Assembly (NCBI GenBank): GCA_902786725.1 | Contig: CADADP010000017.1 | Span: 1 to 43,007 of the forward strand | Source: an uncultured Bacteroidales bacterium | Lineage (GTDB): Bacteria > Bacteroidota > Bacteroidia > Bacteroidales > Muribaculaceae | Length of the DNA: 43,007 nucleotides | Reading direction: 5' to 3' | Shown here: positions 4,925-42,809 of the stretch, one piece after another | Numbering within the stretch: position 1 is the stretch's first letter | Layout of the letters: every line of letters begins with the position of its first letter | Notes under the pieces: generated by a model | Database searches by the model: none | Told to the model about the DNA's origin: nothing | The model's input: the letters and a program-made list of their open reading frames with translations, nothing else | Program-made: the position numbers and the translations under genes

Positions 4925-5347
4925 ATGACCATGAGAAACACAGAAAACAAAAGTCGCCAGGAGCGCGACAAGGAATTTATGGAGATTTACCGGAGTGTAT
5001 TCAAGGAGTATCTTGCGGCCAACGTCCCCGACGCGCGCCTGCGCGCCATCAACTTCGCGTTGCAGAACGGCCGTCCACGCTATCACGTTGGCCTGGACCG
5101 CGCCATGCGCGTGGTGCCACTTCTGCTCAAGGGGTGTCAGTCGCCACTCAAGGCTCAATCGATGCAAGACCGCATGTGGCGCGAGATAGCCGCTAAGGTG
5201 GGGACGTTGCGCGCGGGCGATGAACTGGGGATTAAGCAGGCCATTGAGTTTGTGCTCACTCATTGCCGCGCCTCGCGCTTCTTTATCTCGGTGGGCTATG
5301 CCCGCCAGTTGGTGTCGCCTCGCCGCAGAAAACGATTGGTGGGCTGA
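4925..5347 (+). CDS. Small basic protein with a duplicated R-[YF]-x-[VI] motif, prophage-like
   Basis: The 140-residue product is basic and has no signal or membrane segment. It contains the same pattern twice: RPRYHVGLDRAMRVV near residues 49-63 and ASRFFISVGYARQLV near residues 115-129. Each consists of an Arg, two aromatic or His positions, a hydrophobic pair and an A-x-x-V/L helix. From memory this two-block layout resembles small uncharacterised proteins encoded in Bacteroidales prophage regions, but I cannot name a family. The C-terminus (SPRRRKRLVG) is strongly positive, which suits nucleic-acid binding. It is followed 48 bases later by another small prophage-like gene. A frame on the opposite strand overlaps it fully but lacks any coherent pattern. 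Confidence 0.6.
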   Translation: MTMRNTENKSRQERDKEFMEIYRSVFKEYLAANVPDARLRAINFALQNGRPRYHVGLDRAMRVVPLLLKGCQSPLKAQSMQDRMWREIAAKVGTLRAGDELGIKQAIEFVLTHCRASRFFISVGYARQLVSPRRRKRLVG

Positions 5348-15619: not shown

Positions 15620-15648
15620 CACTCGCTTTTCGCGAGAGCTATTGCTTT

Positions 15649-15720
15649 GGCCCATTCGTCTATCGGCTAGGACGCAAGATTTTCATTCTTGAAAGAGCAG
15701 TTCGATTCTGCTATGGGCTA
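15649..15720 (+). tRNA. tRNA-Glu (anticodon TTC), copy 1
   Basis: The 72-base cloverleaf has acceptor GGCCCAT/ATGGGCT, D stem GTCT/GGAC, anticodon stem CAAGA/TCTTG with loop TTTTCAT (anticodon TTC), and T arm AGCAG-TTCGATT-CTGCT. CCA is not encoded. It is identical to the copy at 16137 and lies 29 bases before rpsT. Confidence 0.97.
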
Positions 15721-15749
15721 CTTTAAAATCAAAAATTATAATTAAAATT

Positions 15750-16007: not shown

Positions 16008-16136
16008 TAGCATTTACTCCCGCGAAGGTGCGCTGTGAGCGCGTCTGGCACAGATAGTAGCCAATGCGCGTAGTAGCCAACGCCTGCGAAAGTGCTGAGA
16101 CATCCTGCGTGTGCCTCGCTGAGGCACGTCTGCAAT

Positions 16137-16208
16137 GGCCCATTCGTCTATCGGCTAGGACGCAAGATTTTCATTCTTGAAAGAGCAGTTCGATTCTGCT
16201 ATGGGCTA
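16137..16208 (+). tRNA. tRNA-Glu (anticodon TTC), copy 2
   Basis: All 72 bases are identical to the copy at 15649. There is no Bacteroidota promoter immediately upstream; instead a small hairpin, GTGCCTC-gct-GAGGCAC (16111-16127), and a 10-base direct repeat TAGTAGCCAA (16055 and 16071) lie in the gap after rpsT. It is probably cut from the rpsT transcript. Confidence 0.96.
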
Positions 16209-16218
16209 CCGATAATCG

Positions 16219-19145: not shown

Positions 19146-19267
19146 TGCTGAGTATGACATTCAAAGATTAGAGCCAAAATAAGAACAAATAAATTCAAGA
19201 CCGGCAAGTATCAAGTGCAACTCAGCTGATTCCTTTAAGGTTCGGTTGCGTTTTGCGAGCCGGCGAT

Positions 19268-19298
19268 TTTGCGTCGTCGGCTAAAAAACGTATCTTTG
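19268..19298 (+). promoter_or_regulatory. Promoter of the RNA methyltransferase gene
   Basis: TTTG (19268-19271), 19 bases, then TATCTTTG (19291-19298). The predicted start of transcription near 19304 excludes the in-frame upstream codon at 19269 and supports ATG 19320. Confidence 0.8.
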
Positions 19299-19319
19299 TG
19301 TTCACAATCTTTGTGCGCA

Positions 19320-20684
19320 ATGAACCTGAAACCTGAATTTGAAAGTGATCTACTGAACCTTTTCGGCGCTGAGGCTTCGGCGATGCTCAGTGCCATCGCC
19401 AACACCGCTCCAGTCGTTTCGGTGCGGGTAAATTCACTTAAAGGCGCATCAGTGCCTCATGGTGCCGAACAAGTACCTTGGTGTCCGCAAGGGTTTTATC
19501 TGCCCGAAAGGCGGCCGTTTACATTCGACCCGGATTTTCATAGTGGGCGTTATTACGTTCAAGACGCGTCCTCAATGTTCATCGCCCACGTAATAAGGCA
19601 AGTAGTAGGCGCGCCTGTGCGCTATCTGGACCTGTGTGCCGCTCCGGGCGGAAAGACCATGGCTGCTCTGTCGGTGTTACCCGCAGGTTCATTTGTGGTG
19701 GCCAACGAAATAGTGGCTCAGCGCGCTCGCGTGCTGGCCGACAACGTGATGCGCTGGGGCGACTCGCGCTGTATGGTGACGAATAGCTCACCGCGCGATT
19801 TGGGGCGCCTCGCAGGTTTCTTCGACGTGGTTGCGGCCGATGTGCCGTGTAGCGGCGAGGGAATGTTCCGAAAAGACGCTGAGGCCGTGGCCCAGTGGTC
19901 GCCTGCGTTGGTGGCCGAGTGCGCGGCGCGTCAGCGTTCGATTGTGGCCGACGTGTGGCCGTCGCTACGTCCCGGTGGTATCTTCATCTACAGCACCTGC
20001 ACGTTCAATAGGGCCGAGAATGAGGATATTATAGAGCACATTGTGGCCGCGTATGGCGCTGAGCCACTGGTGATTTCTGTGGAAGAAGAATGGGGCGTTC
20101 ACGGGGCGGCGGTTGGCCACAATCCGTGCTACCGCTTCCTCCCGCACAAGGTTCGGGGCGAAGGTCTGTTTATGTGTGTTTTACGCAAGCCGGAACAAGC
20201 CACAGTGCGACCGCTATCTGTGAAAAAAATCAAGCCGGTGAGGCCGAGTTTTCCCGCCGAGGCGCGTAACTGGCTCACGTGCGACTATGCATTGAGTGAA
20301 GTGAACGGTGTGGTGCGCGCTGTGTCGCAGGCTCATGCGCAGGTTGTGGATTTCTTGTGTGATAATTTGCGTGTGTTGCAGGCAGGCATCGCGGTGGGCA
20401 CGCAGAAAGGCCGCAATCTCGTCCCTGCTCAGGCATTGGCTCTTGCCACAGATGTGGCTCGTGGCGCGTTTGCGGAGTGCGATGTGGATTATGGCACGGC
20501 TATCGCCTATCTGCGTGGCGAGGCAATAGGCTTGCAGGCGCCGCGTGGTTATGTGCTTGTCACTTACCGTGGCGCGCCTCTGGGCTTTGTGAACAATCTA
20601 GGCAATCGTGCCAATAATCTGTATCCCAAGCCACTACGTATCCTTAGCACAAACGCTCCCGCCACCGCGCCGGCAGTGCTGTGA
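19320..20684 (+). CDS. rRNA (cytosine-C5) methyltransferase of the NOL1/NOP2/Sun family
   Basis: The enzyme transfers a methyl group from S-adenosylmethionine to C5 of a cytosine, most likely in 16S rRNA (RsmF-like). From ATG 19320 it has 454 residues. The SAM site shows LDLCAAPGGKTMA near residues 103-115. The first conserved cysteine is in ADVPCSGEGMFRKD near 175-188 and the catalytic cysteine in YSTCTFNRAENED near 220-232. The C-terminal region (about 320-454) contains a PUA-like part ending in YPKPLRIL, typical of RsmF/YebU. Bacteroidales annotation often leaves the exact target open, and I cannot decide it here. A hairpin follows the stop codon. Confidence 0.88.
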   Translation: MNLKPEFESDLLNLFGAEASAMLSAIANTAPVVSVRVNSLKGASVPHGAEQVPWCPQGFYLPERRPFTFDPDFHSGRYYVQDASSMFIAHVIRQVVGAPVRYLDLCAAPGGKTMAALSVLPAGSFVVANEIVAQRARVLADNVMRWGDSRCMVTNSSPRDLGRLAGFFDVVAADVPCSGEGMFRKDAEAVAQWSPALVAECAARQRSIVADVWPSLRPGGIFIYSTCTFNRAENEDIIEHIVAAYGAEPLVISVEEEWGVHGAAVGHNPCYRFLPHKVRGEGLFMCVLRKPEQATVRPLSVKKIKPVRPSFPAEARNWLTCDYALSEVNGVVRAVSQAHAQVVDFLCDNLRVLQAGIAVGTQKGRNLVPAQALALATDVARGAFAECDVDYGTAIAYLRGEAIGLQAPRGYVLVTYRGAPLGFVNNLGNRANNLYPKPLRILSTNAPATAPAVL

Positions 20685-20770: not shown

Positions 20771-23260
20771 TTATTCACCCATAACCTTGTTGGAAAGGAA
20801 CACCACGTCGGTTATGTCAACGCCACCGTCAACATTCACATCGGCCAGCGCCACGTTGAACCCCGGCGGTGTATCTCCCATAACGTGATTGGATATTGCC
20901 ACAATATCGGTGATATCCACAGCTCCGTCGCCCGTCACGTCACCCACTATGCCTGTTACGCCTGTGAGCAGGCATTCGTCGGTTAGGTTGGTGCCATCGT
21001 TGGTCATCACTTTGATTACGGCGGTACCTTCGGCCAAGATTGTCACCAGTCCGTTGCCATCCACTGTGGCCACAGTCTTGTCGCTCGAGCGCCATGTGAG
21101 CGACGGGTTGGTGGCGTCTTGTGGCTCGGCGGTGACGTTGAGTTTGAGCTTACCACCCACCACGGCCTCAGCCTCGTGCTTGTCGAGCGAGACGGAGGTC
21201 ATTATCACTTCGTCGGTGGGGAACGACTCGTAGTAGAGCGTGAAGTCGTCCAGATAGACGTAACTATTCCTGTTCCCGCTGGTCTGATTTATGCGGAAAC
21301 GTACCGGTTGCGACACGCTCACTTGCCACGTGAGGTCGCTCTCGGTTTGCTTGCCAACGGATATGTTGTCTGACCCGTCGGTCGTTTTTACGGTGGTCCA
21401 AGTGTTTCCGTTATCAACCGACATCGACAGTTTGAACTTTGCCGCAGTTCCGGTGGGGTTATTCACGTGACAAGTAACAAGGTAGATGCCTTTCAGATAC
21501 AAGTCGCTCGATGCCGAAATCATGCTCGGACTCATCATGGCCACCGCTTGCTCCCCATTGCACAGGCCGCTTGTTTCGGGAGCCAATACTTGCGCGTTGG
21601 TGAAGTCCCAGCGGTAGAGCGTGCCTTCCACGTCGGTCTCTTTGTTTGTCTCGCCTATCGGCATGGTCTCAAAGTCCTCAATGAGCGATTCCAGACTGCC
21701 GTCCTCGGCCACGGTGAACGAGATTACGCCGCCGCTTTCCGATATACCGTTGAAAATGTATTCGTTAGGCTGATTTCTGAAAGTGCGCAGGTTGGGAGTG
21801 GATGTGTTGGTTATCATTGTAACTTTTTTGGTGCCCGGGAACGGGTCGGTGCCACTTGCTCCCGACTTGGAATTGCCCGCACGCAGAAGTTGGTAGTAGT
21901 TGCGCGACGAGTTGGCGTTCACCTTGTTATTTTCCCACACCGAAGCGTTGGTGGAGTCAACGCGTGCAATCAGCATGCCGTGTCCCGGAATCATAGCGTC
22001 CCATTTCGACGTCTGGCGGTTCTCAATGTAGAAGAACTCGTTATCGGTGGGCGAGAGTAGTTTGTAACCCTTGCCGCTGCTGGCCAGTGACTCAAGCTTG
22101 TAGTCGCCGGCACTCTTGATTACCGTGGGCTCGGAGAAGCCCACCGACACGCGGTCGTAGAGCGAGTAGCCCACAGGCGTGCGGCTATAGTTGTTGTAGC
22201 TGCCACCGGCCATGATGTCCCATTCTTCGGGGTGGTGGCTCTGACCATTGGTTGCGTAATCGGTGTCGTAGAGGTCGGGCAGGCCCAGCACGTGACCGAA
22301 TTCGTGGCACATGGTGCCTATGCCGTCGAGGATGTTATACTCCGGTGGACCGTACATCTCCACCGAGCTGGCGTAGAGGCCAAAGTAAGTGCCGTTAACG
22401 TTGAAGTTCCAGAACGACGACATGTGAGGCCACAGCCAGTTCTCATTGTTGTTCTGGAAATTGGCGCCTCCACCGGCCACGATAAAGTAAACCATATCCA
22501 CCACACCATCGTGGTCGGTGTCGTAGTCGGCATAATTAATCAGCCCGTCGGTATAGGCTTTTCTCAAGGCAGCCCTAAAAATGGTGTAATATCCGCTGCC
22601 GCATTGGTCGGCTCTGTAGTCAACATCTACCGGGCCAACTACGGTGAAATTGGGGTCGAACTTGCCCAGCGAATTGTCGTAGAAATAGTCGCGCACACTG
22701 CCGGTGAACGAGCCGTAGCTGTTGGCGGTGCCGTTCTCGTTGCGGTAGCCTGTGTAGTTCTTCTCGTTTATCATGCGGTTGTAGAAACTGTTGGCGTCGC
22801 TGCGTGTGAACTTGGTGTCGCTGAAGTTGATAAGCACCACAAGTCCCTTGAAGTTGTTGTAGTCGAACTGACCGGTCTTAAGCTTGTGGCGCGCGTCGCG
22901 ACGTGCTTTGGCCATTGTGCGCAACTCGGTCGAGGGAGCATCGATGAGATATTTCCCGGTAGTGGCCAGCAGTGTGGTCTCTTCGCCCGTGCGGTTGGAC
23001 ACATCGTGTGCCACTACTGCCGATTCTGTTAGCTCTCCCTCAGCGTTGAGCTGAGCGTAGGTGTAGAAGCCTTTGTCGTTCTTCATCACGGTGTAACCGT
23101 CGGTAGTGGTGCTGAAGTGGTAGTATTCGTCACCATGCAAAATCAGGGTTACGGTGGAACCGTCGGGCTGCGTAATCGCCTTCGGGTCGGGGCATGCGGG
23201 CACTGCATGGGCACTGACCATAGTTAGGGCGCAGGCAGTGGCTAATAGTAGTTTCCTCAT
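20771..23260 (-). CDS. Secreted M6-family metalloprotease with Ig-like and dockerin-like domains
   Basis: The 829-residue protein is a secreted zinc protease of the immune inhibitor A (M6) type. A signal peptide (about 1-19, MRKLLLATACALTMVSAHA) is followed by a short pro-region (about 20-100) and the catalytic domain (about 130-510). The zinc motif HEFGHVLGLPD has its first His at residue 319, and a downstream EEWDIMAGGSYNN Met-turn follows near 350. Residues about 515-680 look like a jelly-roll ending in YLDDFTLYYE. About 690-765 form a BIG2-type Ig domain. The last ~60 residues carry two calcium-binding loops, DVTGDGAVDITD and DVNVDGGVDITD, as in type I dockerins. No cohesin is encoded in the window. 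It is a paralogue of the protein at 36354 in its first ~500 residues. Confidence 0.88.
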   Translation of the reverse strand: MRKLLLATACALTMVSAHAVPACPDPKAITQPDGSTVTLILHGDEYYHFSTTTDGYTVMKNDKGFYTYAQLNAEGELTESAVVAHDVSNRTGEETTLLATTGKYLIDAPSTELRTMAKARRDARHKLKTGQFDYNNFKGLVVLINFSDTKFTRSDANSFYNRMINEKNYTGYRNENGTANSYGSFTGSVRDYFYDNSLGKFDPNFTVVGPVDVDYRADQCGSGYYTIFRAALRKAYTDGLINYADYDTDHDGVVDMVYFIVAGGGANFQNNNENWLWPHMSSFWNFNVNGTYFGLYASSVEMYGPPEYNILDGIGTMCHEFGHVLGLPDLYDTDYATNGQSHHPEEWDIMAGGSYNNYSRTPVGYSLYDRVSVGFSEPTVIKSAGDYKLESLASSGKGYKLLSPTDNEFFYIENRQTSKWDAMIPGHGMLIARVDSTNASVWENNKVNANSSRNYYQLLRAGNSKSGASGTDPFPGTKKVTMITNTSTPNLRTFRNQPNEYIFNGISESGGVISFTVAEDGSLESLIEDFETMPIGETNKETDVEGTLYRWDFTNAQVLAPETSGLCNGEQAVAMMSPSMISASSDLYLKGIYLVTCHVNNPTGTAAKFKLSMSVDNGNTWTTVKTTDGSDNISVGKQTESDLTWQVSVSQPVRFRINQTSGNRNSYVYLDDFTLYYESFPTDEVIMTSVSLDKHEAEAVVGGKLKLNVTAEPQDATNPSLTWRSSDKTVATVDGNGLVTILAEGTAVIKVMTNDGTNLTDECLLTGVTGIVGDVTGDGAVDITDIVAISNHVMGDTPPGFNVALADVNVDGGVDITDVVFLSNKVMGE

Positions 23261-23568: not shown

Positions 23569-24348
23569 ATGGGAAAAATAATCGCTATAGCAAACCAGAA
23601 GGGCGGTGTGGGTAAGACCACTACTGCCATCAACCTGTCGGCTTCGCTGGCCATGGCCAAGAAGAAGACTCTGCTCATCGATGCCGACCCGCAAGCCAAC
23701 GCCTCGTCGGGCCTCGGTATCGACCCAAAAAATGTAACATCGTCAATCTACGAATGTCTCGTGGATGACTACCCTGTGACCGGCTCGCGATTGCCAACGT
23801 GTGTTGAAGGGTTGGACATAGTGGCTTCGCGTATCGACCTGGTGGGCGCGGAACTGGAACTTATCAACAAGCCTAATCGCGAAAATGTGATGCGTCGCTC
23901 GCTCGATGCGGTGCGCGATGAGTATGAGTATATCATAATCGACTGCAGCCCGTCGCTGGGGCTCATCACAGTGAACGCGCTCACCGCGGCCGATTCGGTG
24001 ATTATACCCGTGCAGGCCGAGTACTTTGCGCTGGAAGGAATCAGTAAACTGCTCAACACCATTAGGATAATAAAAGGCAAACTGAACCCGTCGCTGCAAA
24101 TCGAAGGCTTCCTGCTCACCATGTACGACGCGCGTCTGCGTCTGGCCAACCAAATCTACGAAGAGCTAAAAAGCCACTTCGGAACAATGGTGTTCAACAC
24201 CGTGATTCCGCGCAACATCCGCCTTAGCGAGGCTCCGAGCCATGGACTGCCGGCGATCCTCTATGACCCAAACAGCCGTGGCGCCACAAGCCATGTGCAA
24301 CTGGCCAAGGAGCTGATTGCCCGTCGTGCTAAGGCTAAGAAACAATAA
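23569..24348 (+). CDS. parA: Chromosome partition ATPase ParA (Soj)
   Basis: ParA is the Walker-type ATPase that moves ParB-bound origins along the nucleoid. The 259-residue product has the deviant Walker A motif KGGVGKTTTAINL near residues 10-22 with the signature Lys before GGVGKT. Walker A' (LLIDADPQANASSGLG) is near 35-50. The Walker B region is IIIDCSPSLGLITVNAL near 120-136. There is no N-terminal DNA-binding domain, as expected for chromosomal ParA. It starts a rightward group with parB, a DUF5683 gene and a lytic transglycosylase, an order common in Bacteroidales. The gap to parB is 27 bases. Confidence 0.96.
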   Translation: MGKIIAIANQKGGVGKTTTAINLSASLAMAKKKTLLIDADPQANASSGLGIDPKNVTSSIYECLVDDYPVTGSRLPTCVEGLDIVASRIDLVGAELELINKPNRENVMRRSLDAVRDEYEYIIIDCSPSLGLITVNALTAADSVIIPVQAEYFALEGISKLLNTIRIIKGKLNPSLQIEGFLLTMYDARLRLANQIYEELKSHFGTMVFNTVIPRNIRLSEAPSHGLPAILYDPNSRGATSHVQLAKELIARRAKAKKQ

Positions 24349-24375: not shown

Positions 24376-25179
24376 ATGAAACGTAATGCCCTGGGCCGTG
24401 GACTCGACTCGCTGATTTCGATGGACGATATTCAGACCGGTGGTTCGTCGGCCATAACTGAAATAAGTATCGACAAAATTTCGCCAAATCCCGACCAACC
24501 GCGAACTTCGTTCCAGGAAGAGTCGCTCGAGGAACTGGCTATGTCAATCCGTGAGATAGGAATCATTCAGCCGCTTACACTGCGCTCGGTGGGCGACGAG
24601 CAGTACCAGATAATATCGGGCGAGAGGCGCTACCGTGCCGCCAAGATGGCCGGACTCGCGTCGGTGCCGGCCTACGTGCGCACCGCCTCCGACGCCGAGC
24701 TCACCGAGATGGCCCTCATCGAGAATATCCAGCGTGAGGACCTGAACGCGATAGAGATTGCGCTTACTTTCCGCAAACTTATAGACCAGTACAACCTCAC
24801 TCAGGAGCGACTTAGCGAACGCATCGGCAAGAAGCGCACCACCATAGCCAATTTCCTGCGGTTGCTCAAGTTGCCCGCCGAGGTGCAACTGGGCTTGCGC
24901 GACCGTGTGGTGGATATGGGGCACGCGAGGGCGCTGCTGTCGGTGGATTCGCCGTCGAAGCAGTTGAAACTCTACAACGAAATCATTAAGAACGGCTTGT
25001 CGGTGAGGCAGGTGGAGCAACTTGCCAAGCAATACAACGCTCAGACAGATACCGCCAAGACTGCCGAAACCGGCCCCACACCGGCTCGTCCCAGAAAAGA
25101 TTATTCGATTCTCACGGGCCACATTTCCAAGACATTTGGGGTGCCGGTGAAGTTCACTTGCAACGATGCCGGAAAATGA
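24376..25179 (+). CDS. parB: Chromosome partition protein ParB, cut short by an in-frame TGA
   Basis: ParB binds parS sites and spreads as a CTP-dependent clamp. The N-terminal domain has GERRYRA at residues 82-88 and the ALIENIQREDLN helix near 114-125. The HTH parS reader includes LSERIGKKRTTIANFLRLLKLP. The open frame ends after 267 residues at FTCNDAGK. The family normally continues with a GKI-x-[IF]-PF block and an ELERI helix that form the C-terminal dimer domain. Exactly that sequence follows in the same frame after TGA (25177-25179). The usual length of about 293 would be restored if the TGA were GGA. Other genes in the window end in TGA, so the codon is a normal stop here. Without the C-terminus dimerisation should be impaired. 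Confidence 0.92.
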   Translation: MKRNALGRGLDSLISMDDIQTGGSSAITEISIDKISPNPDQPRTSFQEESLEELAMSIREIGIIQPLTLRSVGDEQYQIISGERRYRAAKMAGLASVPAYVRTASDAELTEMALIENIQREDLNAIEIALTFRKLIDQYNLTQERLSERIGKKRTTIANFLRLLKLPAEVQLGLRDRVVDMGHARALLSVDSPSKQLKLYNEIIKNGLSVRQVEQLAKQYNAQTDTAKTAETGPTPARPRKDYSILTGHISKTFGVPVKFTCNDAGK

Positions 25180-25257
25180 AAAATCACATTTCCTTTCCAA
25201 AACGAGGATGAACTTGAGAGAATTATTAGTATCTTTGACGGTTTAAAAGAACGGTAA
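25180..25257 (+). pseudogene. In-frame remainder of the ParB C-terminal dimer domain
   Basis: After the TGA the same frame encodes 25 codons and ends at TAA (25255-25257). It begins KITFPFQNEDELERI and ends FDGLKER, a close match to the conserved ParB C-terminus. There is no frameshift, no insertion and no visible SECIS-type hairpin next to the TGA. It has no start codon of its own. Confidence 0.8.
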
Positions 25258-36353: not shown

Positions 36354-39300
36354 ATGAGAAAACTAATTCCATTACTCATGCTGGCGTTGCTCACATGTAG
36401 CATTGCTATGGCAGTGCCGGCAAAACCGGGTTTGAAGAAAACGGTTACTCAGAGCGACGGCACAACCATTACCGTTGGTCTGGTGGGTGACGAGTGGCAC
36501 CATTCGCTGGTCACTTCCGACGGCAAACCCGTAGCCCGCGTGGCTAACGGCGACCTTGTGTATCGCACCGCCGATGGCGTGAGCACTGTGATTGCCCACG
36601 AGAAAGCGCAGCGCACAGCTGCCGAGAAAGCTTTCCTTGAGCAAAACCAGGATGCGATGACAGCTGATGCCATTATTGCCAAGTCGGGACGTGCGAAGAC
36701 GCGCGCCGCGTCGGGACGCAGAAAAGCGGCCGGAAATCCGCAGGTGCCCCAGACTGGTTCGCCTAAGATTCCCATTATCTTGGTGCAGTACAAGGATGTG
36801 AGTTTCGTCAACTCCAAGTCAACGTTCGAGACTCAGTACACGTCCACCACGTCGAAGAGTGCCTACAAGTACTTCAAGGACCAGAGCAACGGGCAATACA
36901 CCCCGCAGTTCGACGTCTATGGCCCCTACACGCTAAGTGGCAATCGTTCCACTTATGGTGGCAACGACAGCGACGGCAACGACGTGGGCGTCGCTAAGAT
37001 GGTGGGTGAAGCCATCGATGTGGCCGGTAGCGCCATTAACTGGGCCAACTACGACAACGACAGCGACGGTGAGGCCGATGTGTGTATCGTGGTGTATGCC
37101 GGCGGAGGCGAGGCACAGACGAGCGTCGATGAGCAAATCTGGCCATGCCAGTGGAATCTGGCATCGGGCAAATCCTATGGCGACGGAACCGGTGCACGCA
37201 CGCGCAACGGGAAGAAAATCGACAAGTTTGCCGTGTTCAACGAACTTAACGGAACCAGTGCCACAAAAATCGACGGTGTGGGAACATTCTGCCACGAATA
37301 CGGGCACTGCATGGGTTTGCCCGACTTCTACGAAACCACCTACGACAATGGTTACTATGGTATGGGTAACTGGGACATAATGTGTGGCGGTAGTTACAAC
37401 GATGATGGCTACACCCCCGTGGGTTACAACAGCTACGAGAAGAACTTTATGGGCTGGCTCACACCCACCACTCCGCAGGAGAACACCAACTACACACTGC
37501 CCGTGTTCAATAACGGCAACGACATGGCCGTGAAAGTGACGAGCCCGCTCAATAGCAACGAGTACTACTTGCTGGAGAATAGGGCCAAGCAAGGCTGGGA
37601 CGCTTACATAAAAGATGAGGGTATGATGGTGCTTCACGTAACCTACGTTGCAAGCCGATGGACCGCTAACACGCCTAATAACGAAGCGGTGCAGCTGTTC
37701 ACCATAATTCCGGCCGACAACAAGCTCTCGGAAAGCAACGAGACCAAAGACCTATTCGGCGAGACCAATCACGCCCTGACCGACGAGACCACGCCGGCCG
37801 CTACGCTGAATATGACCAGCAGCGGTAGCGTAACCGGCAGCGCGGGATATATGGGTAAACCACTCACCGAGATTTACCTCAATAGCGACAAAACGGTATC
37901 GTTCTGGTATATGAAGGGGACCACCACACCGCTGGGCACCCCCACGCTTAACGAGGCCACAGCGCCAGGAACCGACAGATTCACAGCCAGTTGGTCGGCC
38001 GTTGCCAACGCCGGCTCGTATGAGTTGCAAATCGACCCCACCGGCACCGGCACCGGCGGTGGCGGCACGGGCGGAGGTGGCACCACCGGTGGCTCGCAAT
38101 ACGTGAAAGTGACATCGGCCGGAGAGCTCACCAGTGGCGACTATCTGATAGTGTACGAAGGTGACAGCAAGGCATTTAATGGAGGTCTAACTACGCTCGA
38201 CGCAAAGAATAACTATATCAGCGTGACCATTGACAACGGAGCCATCGAGGCCAACTCCACAACCAATGCGGCGAAGTTTACCTATGATGCTGATGCTACA
38301 GCCAAAACGCTGAAGAGTGCAAGTGGCTATTACATTGGAAATGATGCAAATTCCAACGCTCTGAGCTCTAGTACTTCAACGAAATACACCAACACTATTA
38401 CTTTCGATGATAGTGGCAATGCCACAATTAAGGGTAAAGGAGGTGCTTATCTGCGCTATAACAGCACAAATAATGAGAATCGTTTCCGTTACTATAAGTC
38501 GTCGTCATATACGTCTCAGAAAGCCATTCAACTTTATAAGTTGAGCGATTCGGCCTCGGCTCCGCGTAAGGCGGCCGCCACCAGCCAGACCATCACGGGC
38601 ATCACGGCAACGAGCTACACTGTTACCGGCTTGAAGGACAACACCACTTACGCGTTCAAGGTGCGTGCCGTCCCCGCCACCACCGACAGTGAGCACTCAA
38701 CCGGCAACTGGAGCACTGTGAAGTCGGTGACCACCACATACGATGCAAGCCTGCACACACCGATGATACTCGCCGACGAAACCGCAGCGGTGTCGGCCTA
38801 TGTAGGCCAGCAAGGCACAGTGGATGTGACCGTGCTCTACGAAGACCTTACCGCAGACATTACGGCTAACATAACCGGAGCAAATTCCGCTATGTTCTCC
38901 TGCCCGGAGACAATCACTCGCGACAGTAGCGGTGAGGGCGAGGCAGCGCTCACAATCACGTATCAGCCCAATGCGGCAGGTACTCACACAGCCACGCTGA
39001 CCCTTACCAGTACAGGAGCCGACCCGGTGACCGTGACGCTGACCGGAACGGCCACTCTGGCCCCAATCGCCACTTCTACGCCGGTGATGCAGACGGCATC
39101 GGCTGTGACCGCGTCGGGTTTCACGGCCACGTGGACCGATAACACACCTGACGAGGCAGTGGAGAGTTACACCCTCTATGTGAACAAGCAACCCGAAATA
39201 AGCGGATACGTCTATACCAAGGTGACCGATGCCGGTACACTCGCGCAGGGCGACCAGGTGATATTCGTGGACGAGACCGCCCAGACGGCGGCCGGCGGGT

Positions 39301-42300
39301 TCGGGAGCAACAATTATATGTCGTCGGTGGCAGTGAATATCTCCAATGGCCAAATAGTTCCGGGCGACGATGTGAACGTGTTCACAATCAGCGCGAGCGG
39401 AGACGGATGGAAATTCCTGTCGAGTCTCAACGGCGAGTACTTGAAAACAGATGTGGCCAAGAAAATGACTACCGATGAGACCGGAACGGCGGCAACGGTG
39501 TCGATTGTCGGCGGTGATGCCACTATTGAATTCGCCCCTTATGGTCGCATTCTCTACAATGCCACCAGTCCGCGATTCCTGAATTATACCAGCAATACGT
39601 CCAAGTCCATGCGCCTGCCTCAGCTCTATCGCAGGACGGCGGTGAGCGGCAACGCGCCCGCTAAGGCGAGCGAAACCGGTGATGCCGACGACGATGGCCT
39701 CACCGTGACGGGCATTACGGCCAAGACCTATAACGTGACCGGACTGACAGCCGGAGCCACCTACGACTTCAAGGTTAAGGCCATTTACACCGCCCGCGCC
39801 TCGGCTGCCGAAAGCTCTTGGAGCAATTTGGAGAGCGTAACCCTGCTTGAGTCGGCTAATCCCAAATTGACGCTGAGCCAGACCGCGCTCGCGTTTACGG
39901 CCACCAACAACACCACCGACAGCAAGACATTCACCGTGATCGGTCAGAACCTGACCGGCGATGTGAGTGTGGAAGTGACCGGTGAAGGAGCCGCGATGTT
40001 CAGCGTGAGTCCGGCCACTATAGCGGCGGCCGATGCGAACGGCGCCACAGTGACCGTGACTTATACCCCAACTGCGGCCGGTAACCACACGGCCACCATC
40101 ACGGTGAGCAGCAGCGGTGCCGAGAGCAAGACCGTGGCGCTGACCGGAACGGCCACGCTGGCCAAAGGCACGCTCAATCTGAACGAGGCAAGCAACGTGG
40201 GTTCCACTCAGTTCACCGCTTCGTGGACCGACACCACCACTCCGGCATCGAACGTGTCGAGTTATACGCTCTACGTGAACAAGCAACCCGAGGTGACCGA
40301 GATATCCGATGAGCTGACGCGCTCTGTGACCGGAGTCGCTGAAGGAAAGGATTATGGTACATGGTCGAACAAGAGCGTGAATTCAAGCGCGGTGTATGCC
40401 GGAAATAGCGCCGGCTTGAATAATACCATCCAGTTGAGAAGCAATAACAGCAACTCCGGTATTGTAACCACCGCTTCGGGAGGTAAAATACGTAAAGTGA
40501 CGGTTGCTTGGGAAAGCAATACTGTGAATGGCCGAACTCTTAACGTGTATGGGAAAAACTCGGCTTATTCCGCGGCGACCGACCTTTATAGTTCTAAGAC
40601 TCAGGGCACTCTGCTTGGAACCATTGTTAATGGAACGAGCACGGAACTTGAGATATCAGGTGATTATGCTTTTGTGGGAGTCCGCTCGGATGGTGGAGCG
40701 ATGTACCTTAACAGCATCACCTTCACCTGGGAAGGTACTGCTGCCGGCGCACCTCGAAGGACACCTAATCCTCAGGGTGATGCCGATAATGAAGGCCTAA
40801 CAGTGACCGGAATCACTGAGAAGAGTTATACCGTGACCGGGCTGACAGCCGGAGCCACTTATGACTTCAAGGTCAAAGCTGTTTATGCCGACGACAGTCA
40901 GAGCGACTGGACCGAAACCAAGCATGTGACGCTGGAAGAGAGTAGCGACCCGCGCATAAGCGTCAGCGCAAGTTCACTTGAGTTCGCGCAGACCAATGTG
41001 GGCGGTACCGCTACGCAGACGCTGACCGTGACCGCGGCCAACTTGACGCAGAGCGTGAACGTGGGTGTGACCGGCGAGGGCTTCAGCGTGTCGCCGGCGA
41101 CCTTGACGGCTGCCGAGGCCAATGGCGCCACCATTACGGTGACCTATGAGCCCACCGCGGCCGGAAATCACAGTGGCACTGTGACACTGAGCAGCAGTGA
41201 AATTGCCGCCAACGTGGAGGTGTCGCTCACGGGCTCGGCTGTGTATCAGAAATCGGTACCGCAAATGCAACCGGCCGCTAACGTGGGCATGTCCTCGTTC
41301 AAGGCCTTGTGGACCGACGCTACCAACGCCGCCGCGGTAACCGACTACACACTCTATGTGAACAAAGTGCCTGATGAGCCCGATGTGCTGACTCCGATAC
41401 TGAGCGAAACGTTCGGCAAGGAATCGACTATTATAACAACGGATGGCACAAGAGATATAGGGAATAATAATGAACTTAACGATTATACCGATGTCGCCGG
41501 CTGGACCGGATATGCTGTGTATCACGGCACCGGATATAGCCTGAAGTTGGGCTCAGGCAATTATGCGGGTACCCTTACCACACCGCCGCTTGACCTGAGC
41601 AACTCAAATGGCAAGGTAACAGTTAAGTTCATTGGTAAGTATTATGGAAGCGATAAAAGTTCGGTGGTTCTTAGCTCGGGCGACAACAACTCGCTCACGC
41701 AGTCGCTTGCCAGCGACGCAAGGACCTACGTGCTGGTGCTGAACTGCACGGCGGCGGCCAATCAGACGATTACGTTTGAGGGAACCGCCAAGAGTAAACG
41801 ATTCTATCTCTACAACGTTCAGGTATATTTGGGCGATGTGAGTAGCGAGGTAAACGCCGCGCCGCGCCGCTTGCCGGCCGAGAGCGGTAGCGCCGACTCT
41901 ACCGACGGCCTCACTGTGACCGGAATCACCGATAAGGAATATTCCGTGATGGAACTGACTGCCGGTGCCACTTACACCTTCTATGTGAAGGCCAACTACG
42001 CCGACGGCACTACAAGCGAGCTGAGCAACACCGAAGAGGTGACTCTGAATGCCGGCGGAAACACGTTGGCCCAAGTGCTCGATAGCGAACTCGGCGACTA
42101 TTCGGTGACCGACAATCTGGCCATTGTGGCTTCGGTGCCCGAGTCGAGCCTGTATTACGCCACCAACGGAACCGACTGGATTCCTATCCACAGCACCAAG
42201 TCGCTCACAACTAATCAAGTGATAACCAACGTGGATGGCGAGTTCAACGGTAGCACCACGGCACCTGAATTTGAACTGGCCGGTGCCAAGACCAGCGAGG

Positions 42301-42809
42301 AGACTGTGGATTTCACCATCTCCACCCTCTACTTGGGCAACGACTTCAATAACATTCCGGTGGAATGGGATGAACTGCCAGTCGCAGGGCAAGTGGTGGA
42401 CCTTGTGGGCTACCTGTTCTTCGAAGGTGATGTGGCCACACTTCGCGGCTACAGCACTCAGCAGGGTCGCCGATTGGTGCTTAAGACCGACCACGTGAAC
42501 CTGACCAACACCACTAAGCAGTACCTGAAGGTGCGCGCTTGCATCGAGTTGAACGAGCCGTGGAGCGGAGCGCCGCGCCGCCGCATAGGAGCGGGCGATG
42601 AGAACGCTTACACAAACTTGCGCGCGCAGCTCATCAGTGTGCAGGATGTGCTCACAGGAGTGGACGACCTCACAGTGGCCCGCACGCCGGTGAAGGTGAC
42701 CTACTACAATGTGGCCGGAATGGCAAGCGATGAGCCGTTCAGTGGCGTGAACATAGTGGTGACCACCTATGCCGACGGCACCACCGAGACCGTGAAGCAG
42801 ATGAGATAA
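36354..42809 (+). CDS. Giant secreted M6 metalloprotease with nested fibronectin/Ig modules and T9SS-like tail
   Basis: The 2151-residue protein has a signal peptide (about 1-20), a pro-region (about 21-130) and an M6 catalytic domain (about 135-510). The zinc motif HEYGHCMGLPD has its first His at residue 314, and GNWDIMCGGSYND is the Met-turn block. A Gly/Thr-rich linker lies near 563-582. Four fibronectin-III-like units follow at about 523-795, 905-1163, 1271-1527 and 1631-1898, three of them separated by Ig-like domains ending in TLTGTATL or similar. Each FN3 is split by an inserted domain of 100-200 residues. Residues about 1900-2090 form another beta-rich domain. The end (VKVTYYNVAGM...GVNIVVTTYADG) resembles a type A T9SS sorting domain. 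The first 500 residues are paralogous to the protease at 20771. Substrates are unknown. Confidence 0.88.
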   Translation: MRKLIPLLMLALLTCSIAMAVPAKPGLKKTVTQSDGTTITVGLVGDEWHHSLVTSDGKPVARVANGDLVYRTADGVSTVIAHEKAQRTAAEKAFLEQNQDAMTADAIIAKSGRAKTRAASGRRKAAGNPQVPQTGSPKIPIILVQYKDVSFVNSKSTFETQYTSTTSKSAYKYFKDQSNGQYTPQFDVYGPYTLSGNRSTYGGNDSDGNDVGVAKMVGEAIDVAGSAINWANYDNDSDGEADVCIVVYAGGGEAQTSVDEQIWPCQWNLASGKSYGDGTGARTRNGKKIDKFAVFNELNGTSATKIDGVGTFCHEYGHCMGLPDFYETTYDNGYYGMGNWDIMCGGSYNDDGYTPVGYNSYEKNFMGWLTPTTPQENTNYTLPVFNNGNDMAVKVTSPLNSNEYYLLENRAKQGWDAYIKDEGMMVLHVTYVASRWTANTPNNEAVQLFTIIPADNKLSESNETKDLFGETNHALTDETTPAATLNMTSSGSVTGSAGYMGKPLTEIYLNSDKTVSFWYMKGTTTPLGTPTLNEATAPGTDRFTASWSAVANAGSYELQIDPTGTGTGGGGTGGGGTTGGSQYVKVTSAGELTSGDYLIVYEGDSKAFNGGLTTLDAKNNYISVTIDNGAIEANSTTNAAKFTYDADATAKTLKSASGYYIGNDANSNALSSSTSTKYTNTITFDDSGNATIKGKGGAYLRYNSTNNENRFRYYKSSSYTSQKAIQLYKLSDSASAPRKAAATSQTITGITATSYTVTGLKDNTTYAFKVRAVPATTDSEHSTGNWSTVKSVTTTYDASLHTPMILADETAAVSAYVGQQGTVDVTVLYEDLTADITANITGANSAMFSCPETITRDSSGEGEAALTITYQPNAAGTHTATLTLTSTGADPVTVTLTGTATLAPIATSTPVMQTASAVTASGFTATWTDNTPDEAVESYTLYVNKQPEISGYVYTKVTDAGTLAQGDQVIFVDETAQTAAGGFGSNNYMSSVAVNISNGQIVPGDDVNVFTISASGDGWKFLSSLNGEYLKTDVAKKMTTDETGTAATVSIVGGDATIEFAPYGRILYNATSPRFLNYTSNTSKSMRLPQLYRRTAVSGNAPAKASETGDADDDGLTVTGITAKTYNVTGLTAGATYDFKVKAIYTARASAAESSWSNLESVTLLESANPKLTLSQTALAFTATNNTTDSKTFTVIGQNLTGDVSVEVTGEGAAMFSVSPATIAAADANGATVTVTYTPTAAGNHTATITVSSSGAESKTVALTGTATLAKGTLNLNEASNVGSTQFTASWTDTTTPASNVSSYTLYVNKQPEVTEISDELTRSVTGVAEGKDYGTWSNKSVNSSAVYAGNSAGLNNTIQLRSNNSNSGIVTTASGGKIRKVTVAWESNTVNGRTLNVYGKNSAYSAATDLYSSKTQGTLLGTIVNGTSTELEISGDYAFVGVRSDGGAMYLNSITFTWEGTAAGAPRRTPNPQGDADNEGLTVTGITEKSYTVTGLTAGATYDFKVKAVYADDSQSDWTETKHVTLEESSDPRISVSASSLEFAQTNVGGTATQTLTVTAANLTQSVNVGVTGEGFSVSPATLTAAEANGATITVTYEPTAAGNHSGTVTLSSSEIAANVEVSLTGSAVYQKSVPQMQPAANVGMSSFKALWTDATNAAAVTDYTLYVNKVPDEPDVLTPILSETFGKESTIITTDGTRDIGNNNELNDYTDVAGWTGYAVYHGTGYSLKLGSGNYAGTLTTPPLDLSNSNGKVTVKFIGKYYGSDKSSVVLSSGDNNSLTQSLASDARTYVLVLNCTAAANQTITFEGTAKSKRFYLYNVQVYLGDVSSEVNAAPRRLPAESGSADSTDGLTVTGITDKEYSVMELTAGATYTFYVKANYADGTTSELSNTEEVTLNAGGNTLAQVLDSELGDYSVTDNLAIVASVPESSLYYATNGTDWIPIHSTKSLTTNQVITNVDGEFNGSTTAPEFELAGAKTSEETVDFTISTLYLGNDFNNIPVEWDELPVAGQVVDLVGYLFFEGDVATLRGYSTQQGRRLVLKTDHVNLTNTTKQYLKVRACIELNEPWSGAPRRRIGAGDENAYTNLRAQLISVQDVLTGVDDLTVARTPVKVTYYNVAGMASDEPFSGVNIVVTTYADGTTETVKQMR
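39165..41992 (+). repeat. Tandem coding repeats of the FN3/Ig modules
   Basis: Near-identical DNA blocks recur: the strand encoding YTLYVNKQPE at 39165-39197 and 40260-40291, with a diverged copy from 41343; and the block encoding LTVTGI...GLTAGATYDFKVKA at 39696-39782 and 40794-40880, with a diverged copy at 41907-41992. The sequences between the first and second block of each pair differ strongly from one another and are more AT-rich. Confidence 0.8.

Follow-up and report, generated by a model that had tools for sequence, protein, structure and literature searches.

Chromosomal ParB proteins and the C-terminal domain

The closest described counterparts of the locus reported here are the chromosomal ParB/Spo0J proteins of the ParABS system, whose CTP-binding motif is given as GERRxRA (PMC7333895). 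In Bacillus subtilis, the C-terminal domain (CTD) of ParB is reported to have the order α1-β1-β2-α2 and to dimerise through an intermolecular β-sheet together with domain-swapped C-terminal helices; a leucine-zipper double mutant of this protein formed no foci, and the same is reported, with the data not shown, for ParB truncated at E222 or E227 (PMC5731820). Similarly, the CTD of Caulobacter crescentus ParB is described as the primary dimerisation domain, and DNA as held between it and the DNA-binding domain (PMC8367383). The ParABS system is reported as essential in some species, and elsewhere strains devoid of it survive with more anucleate cells (PMC7333895).

The locus lies in a 43,007-nucleotide stretch of DNA from an uncultured Bacteroidales bacterium of the Muribaculaceae (contig CADADP010000017.1; hereafter, the window), in which parB follows parA in tandem (Table 1). 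With the chromosomal ParB/Spo0J proteins it has in common the ParB_N and HTH_ParB domains, the adjoining parA, the motif in the form GERRYRA, a parS-like site elsewhere in the genome, and a C-terminal dimerisation domain, which is here encoded across a stop. It differs from them in that one in-frame TGA cuts off the last 25 codons, and the predicted product would be without β2 and α2. Engineered ParB proteins without the CTD, namely C. crescentus ParB minus its last 50 amino acids (PMC8367383) and the B. subtilis truncations at E222 and E227 (PMC5731820), likewise combine the N-terminal and DNA-binding domains with the lack of a working CTD dimer; however, as described, these constructs were cut before the whole CTD, whereas the window parB is cut inside it and α1-β1 is retained.

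Table 1. Coordinates of the parA-parB locus within the window
Feature	Position	Strand	Description
parA (Soj-type ATPase)	23569..24348	+	259 aa, intact, TAA end; AAA_31, E 1.3e-66
parB open frame	24376..25179	+	267 aa, closed by TGA 25177-25179; Pfam PF02195 and PF17762
In-frame TGA	25177..25179	+	Glycine codon in 106/106 distinct relative genes aligned
Tail past the TGA	25180..25254	+	25 codons for the last part of the ParB dimerisation domain (remainder of β2, and α2, in the model)
TAA closing the tail	25255..25257	+	Near the end position of relatives

Elsewhere in the window, two tRNA-Glu (TTC) genes at 15643-15721 and 16131-16209 are near-identical 79-base copies situated 488 bases apart. 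A frame of 2151 amino acids at 36354-42809 gave matches to an M6-type peptidase domain, a fibronectin III domain, and several Ig/ASH-like domains, and a frame of 829 amino acids on the minus strand (20771-23260) carries an M6-type peptidase domain, Big_2, and a type I dockerin.

The parB frame and its in-frame tail

In a preliminary description of this DNA, the parB frame was said to close at the TGA and to continue behind it for 25 in-frame codons as far as a TAA, and re-reading of the sequence confirms this arrangement; the tail, 25 sense codons in the same frame, reads KITFPFQNEDELERIISIFDGLKER. The 267-residue product matches ParB_N (PF02195, E 4.2e-36) and HTH_ParB (PF17762, E 3.9e-36), and the best relative match of the neighbouring parA is 83% identical and without an internal stop. 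When the TGA is read as tryptophan, the ParB dimerisation domain (ParB_C, PF23552) spans the stop at residues 244-286 with E 3.9e-5 and 23.4 bits, a score that falls just below the curated cut-off of 23.8 bits; in the 267-residue product, no PF23552 match was listed at E ≤ 1, most matches above about 0.1 being filtered by the tool. The same domain was found at E ≤ 0.01 in all 46 aligned members, which comprised the read-through window protein and 45 relatives drawn from the 78 usable of 80 loci. On these matches, the gene is best classed as parB by descent, and its product as found would lack the C-terminal dimerisation domain.

Codon usage gives the tail a weak score of -1.05, a value reached by 13 of 60 stretches that follow ordinary stops; the case for the tail is one of homology. 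Over the tail, no match was obtained in a PDB sequence search. Two other sources of a C-terminus were considered and rejected: parB has a single match in its own genome, which is 88.39% complete, leaving no second copy as a supplier, and a restart at the overlapping ATG at 25176-25178 would run for 11 codons in another frame and would miss the tail.

A single-chain model of the read-through ParB was obtained with a mean pLDDT of 80.6 and a pTM of 0.56, the ten-residue blocks from residue 241 onward averaging 68-85. The modelled CTD consists of α1 (242-254), β1 (259-262), β2 (268-271), and α2 (277-292), and the stop is codon 268, at the start of β2; thus, β2 and α2 would be lost and α1-β1 kept. 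In homologues, the elements that would be lost form the CTD dimer interface, which agrees with the earlier claim that the event removes the part of ParB needed for dimerisation. By analogy, a 267-residue ParB should not dimerise through its CTD, nor should it form a stable sliding clamp or a partition focus; a loss of dimerisation, together with an effect on segregation, may be inferred from the same homologues.

Comparison with relatives

The column of the TGA is occupied by glycine in 106 of 106 distinct relative coding sequences (GGA 57, GGC 19, GGG 18, GGT 12), which were obtained from 120 relative parB loci after merging duplicates, and relative loci that were read individually run past the TGA position to a normal end. 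The closest ParB relative is about 80% identical, and the best-matching named parB records are mostly metagenome assemblies of Muribaculaceae, Porphyromonadaceae, or Bacteroidales, several of which name the rumen or gut. As the preliminary description had proposed, a single codon is hit: only the TGA codon is affected, glycine stands there in all relatives aligned, and the tail is conserved.

Surveys at three taxonomic levels extend this comparison. Within the genus, a ParB match was found in 58 of 61 genomes (G026, G027, and G035 being without one), and the other full-length ParB frames, 56 in number, are listed at 293-385 and the window frame at 268; one match (G039) spans only residues 175-267 of the query, and weaker extra ParB-like rows in six genomes were not counted. 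Within the family, 375 of 397 genomes gave a match, and among the 150 match rows listed, an internal stop appears only in that of the window genome. Within the order, a match was present in 140 of 149 genomes, in three of them (G416, G540, and G545) by fragments or weak matches only; three rows were flagged with a stop, those of the window genome, G485, and G501, and the latter two were rejected as internal because both rows align as far as residue 289 of 292 with no stop on the way, so that theirs are ordinary ends. No other ParB with a true internal stop was seen in the genus and order surveys or among the 150 family matches listed.

The tail itself is under the same constraint as the body of the protein. 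Against the 30 most similar relatives, pN/pS is 0.26 in the tail, 0.25 in the body (codons 1-242), and 0.41 in the 25 codons that precede the stop, with pS at 0.65-0.77; the tail comes 46th among 107 sequences in a leave-one-out profile, and of its 25 residues only the last is rarely seen in relatives. The tail is thus undecayed, as judged by these comparisons, despite large synonymous differences to other species. Since it is as constrained as the body, the stop would be very recent, or would not exist in the living population, or would be subject to some level of readthrough.

Quality of the assembly

The window genome is a 2.38-Mb draft in 73 contigs with a completeness of 88.39% and, judging from its relatives, is probably a metagenome assembly. 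Twenty genes (7,652 codons; 13 genes in the window and seven in fetched stretches) were compared with relatives, matches under 45% identity being dropped; two of the 20 showed stops, ParB and an rsmF-like gene, and the only true internal stop is that in ParB. The two stops of the rsmF-like gene were rejected as internal since both lie upstream of its start. At 19197-19360, a longer frame of a relative aligns upstream of that start through the two stops, and this stretch looks non-coding in the window; the frame list, with a TTG at 19269, may set the start of the gene too early.

A reference-free scan for split frames over 389,721 bases, with the window included, returned eight candidates, all of which were rejected as split genes on inspection: seven look like the start of a following gene that happens to share the frame, and one is antisense to a secDF-like gene. 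In simulation, the scan recovered 3,513 of 5,000 stops (70%), and 311 of 931 (33%) where fewer than 50 codons were left; it would miss the ParB tail at its score of -1.05, and the background nonsense rate of the assembly is therefore only loosely bounded by it. A general contamination of the assembly with stops is rejected, as the sampled part is not riddled with them, and the data are compatible with one error. A literature search for premature stops in metagenome-assembled genomes, made with a narrow joint-term query, found none.

Alternative explanations

One route to a 267-residue ParB would be a family in which the protein naturally ends at GK, a circumstance that the preliminary description had named as one that would overturn its reading. 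None of the relatives examined ends there, and the presence of ParB_C in every member scanned speaks further against it; a natural short form is refuted among the genomes compared, and its probability is practically nil. Alternatively, the organism could possess a suppressor tRNA, or could have recoded TGA to tryptophan, glycine, or selenocysteine; suppression had been raised earlier, with a check of the tRNA genes as its test. Nothing in favour of this option was found beyond the open tail itself, and in a genome only 88% complete a tRNA may have escaped notice. However, TGA ends 71 of 197 mechanical frames of at least 300 codons with a seen stop (TAA 102, TAG 24; antisense frames left in) in the 389,721 sampled bases of the genome, and its use as a normal stop, as had been claimed, is seen in the window at 5345-5347 and at 20682-20684, the end of the rsmF-like gene. 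Moreover, no stop-reading anticodon occurs among the 43 tRNA genes found, nine matches to tRNA-Sec are all below the cut-off and all on ordinary tRNA places, the tRNA-Trp is unaltered (identical in nine of 30 other same-genus genomes, 99% in two, and 96% in eight, the other 11 being without such a match), and RF2 is an open, stop-free frame of 399 amino acids. With these checks giving it no support, suppression or recoding appears extremely improbable.

Functional readthrough, in which an amino acid (most likely tryptophan) is put in at the TGA in a fraction of passes, would yield the short protein together with some full-length dimeric ParB, and the tail would stay useful. The intact tail is what such readthrough would predict, and TGA is reported as the leakiest stop of Escherichia coli, for which a maximum of 14% is quoted from earlier work and values of up to 80% are given at certain positions under stress (PMC11126739). 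On the other hand, a conserved tail is equally expected from a recent event, and the base after the parB TGA is A, whereas it is G at this place that is reported to lower the accuracy of termination in E. coli and T to raise it (PMC11126739). A stop conserved at the same place in relatives, as a programmed readthrough would have, was not found, the position being glycine throughout; the stop is private to one genome and is shared by no relative in the genus and order surveys, in the alignment, or among the family matches listed. Because the TGA is seen in the window genome alone, programmed readthrough is unlikely, and selection for readthrough at this site is without comparative support. Neither programmed readthrough nor recoding is supported by these sequence comparisons, and functional readthrough, which had been offered as an option, is rated as unlikely. 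A more elaborate form of the same idea, in which the TGA would be a real and maintained leaky stop private to the species that divides ParB between a short CTP switch of monomer-like character and a full-length dimer in minor amount, with the readthrough rate tuning the size of the partition complex, is highly improbable.

A different possibility, overlapping with that of a real allele, is that the lineage is losing ParABS and that the truncation of ParB marks an early stage of this decay. The window genome holds one parS-like site at up to two mismatches, TGTTTCACGTGGAACA, which has one mismatch and lies between mnmG and apt on another contig (G000:C5 13842-13857); a second parS-like site inside uvrC, which accompanies the mnmG-apt site in 10 of 12 other genomes (fetched because paired; seven at one place in the gene and three at another), is missing from the window uvrC. 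Against decay, parA and the body of ParB are intact, and the remaining site has a single mismatch and lies at a place conserved in relatives. In addition, genomes in which the ParB frame is open can likewise have few or no parS-like sites, with one in each of G013, G038, and G056 and none in G009 and G031, and the scarcity of parS is thus not tied to the truncation of ParB; the single-contig genome G060, with an open ParB, has one site with one mismatch and two with two. Bare counts mean little here: at two mismatches, a backward control pattern occurs about as often as parS does (two against one in the window genome), so that the evidence of parS lies in its conserved place and not in its count. 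For 12 gut bacteria surveyed with the same consensus and two mismatches, one to ten sites per genome are reported (PMC10197239). Decay of ParABS is considered very unlikely. Ten same-genus relatives (L191-L200) carry two parS-like sites about 1.1-1.5 kb apart.

Origin and meaning of the stop

The explanation that is very probably correct is a sporadic, non-programmed single-base event that put a TGA into an ordinary chromosomal parB at a glycine codon which is invariant in the relatives aligned. The stop is most simply put down to a fresh one-base mutation or a consensus error, and not to any novel mechanism. In draft genomes, young nonsense alleles and consensus errors are a known kind of event; the window parB has in common with them a single private stop, an undecayed tail, and a gene showing no other fault, and it differs in that a conserved housekeeping gene is hit. 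Such an event could have arisen in two ways, either as a young nonsense allele in the sampled population, or in the draft assembly, through a consensus error or the uptake of a minor strain variant; strain-specific nonsense and sequence error were both among the options named in the preliminary description. As a matter of judgement and not of result, we consider the two origins to be nearly even, with the error or minor variant slightly favoured.

Taken at face value, the stop would leave a cell making a 267-residue ParB with the CTP-binding N-terminal domain and the parS-binding HTH domain and without β2 and α2; by homology with B. subtilis, such a protein would fail in CTD dimerisation and would form no stable sliding clamp or partition focus. 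Because ParABS is dispensable in some species, a living cell with a truncated-ParB allele is possible. Should the stop be an error, it would serve as a reminder that a lone private stop in a draft assembly has to be compared with the reads before biological conclusions are drawn from it. A real allele would offer a natural test of whether a Bacteroidales cell can live with a ParB that has no dimer interface.
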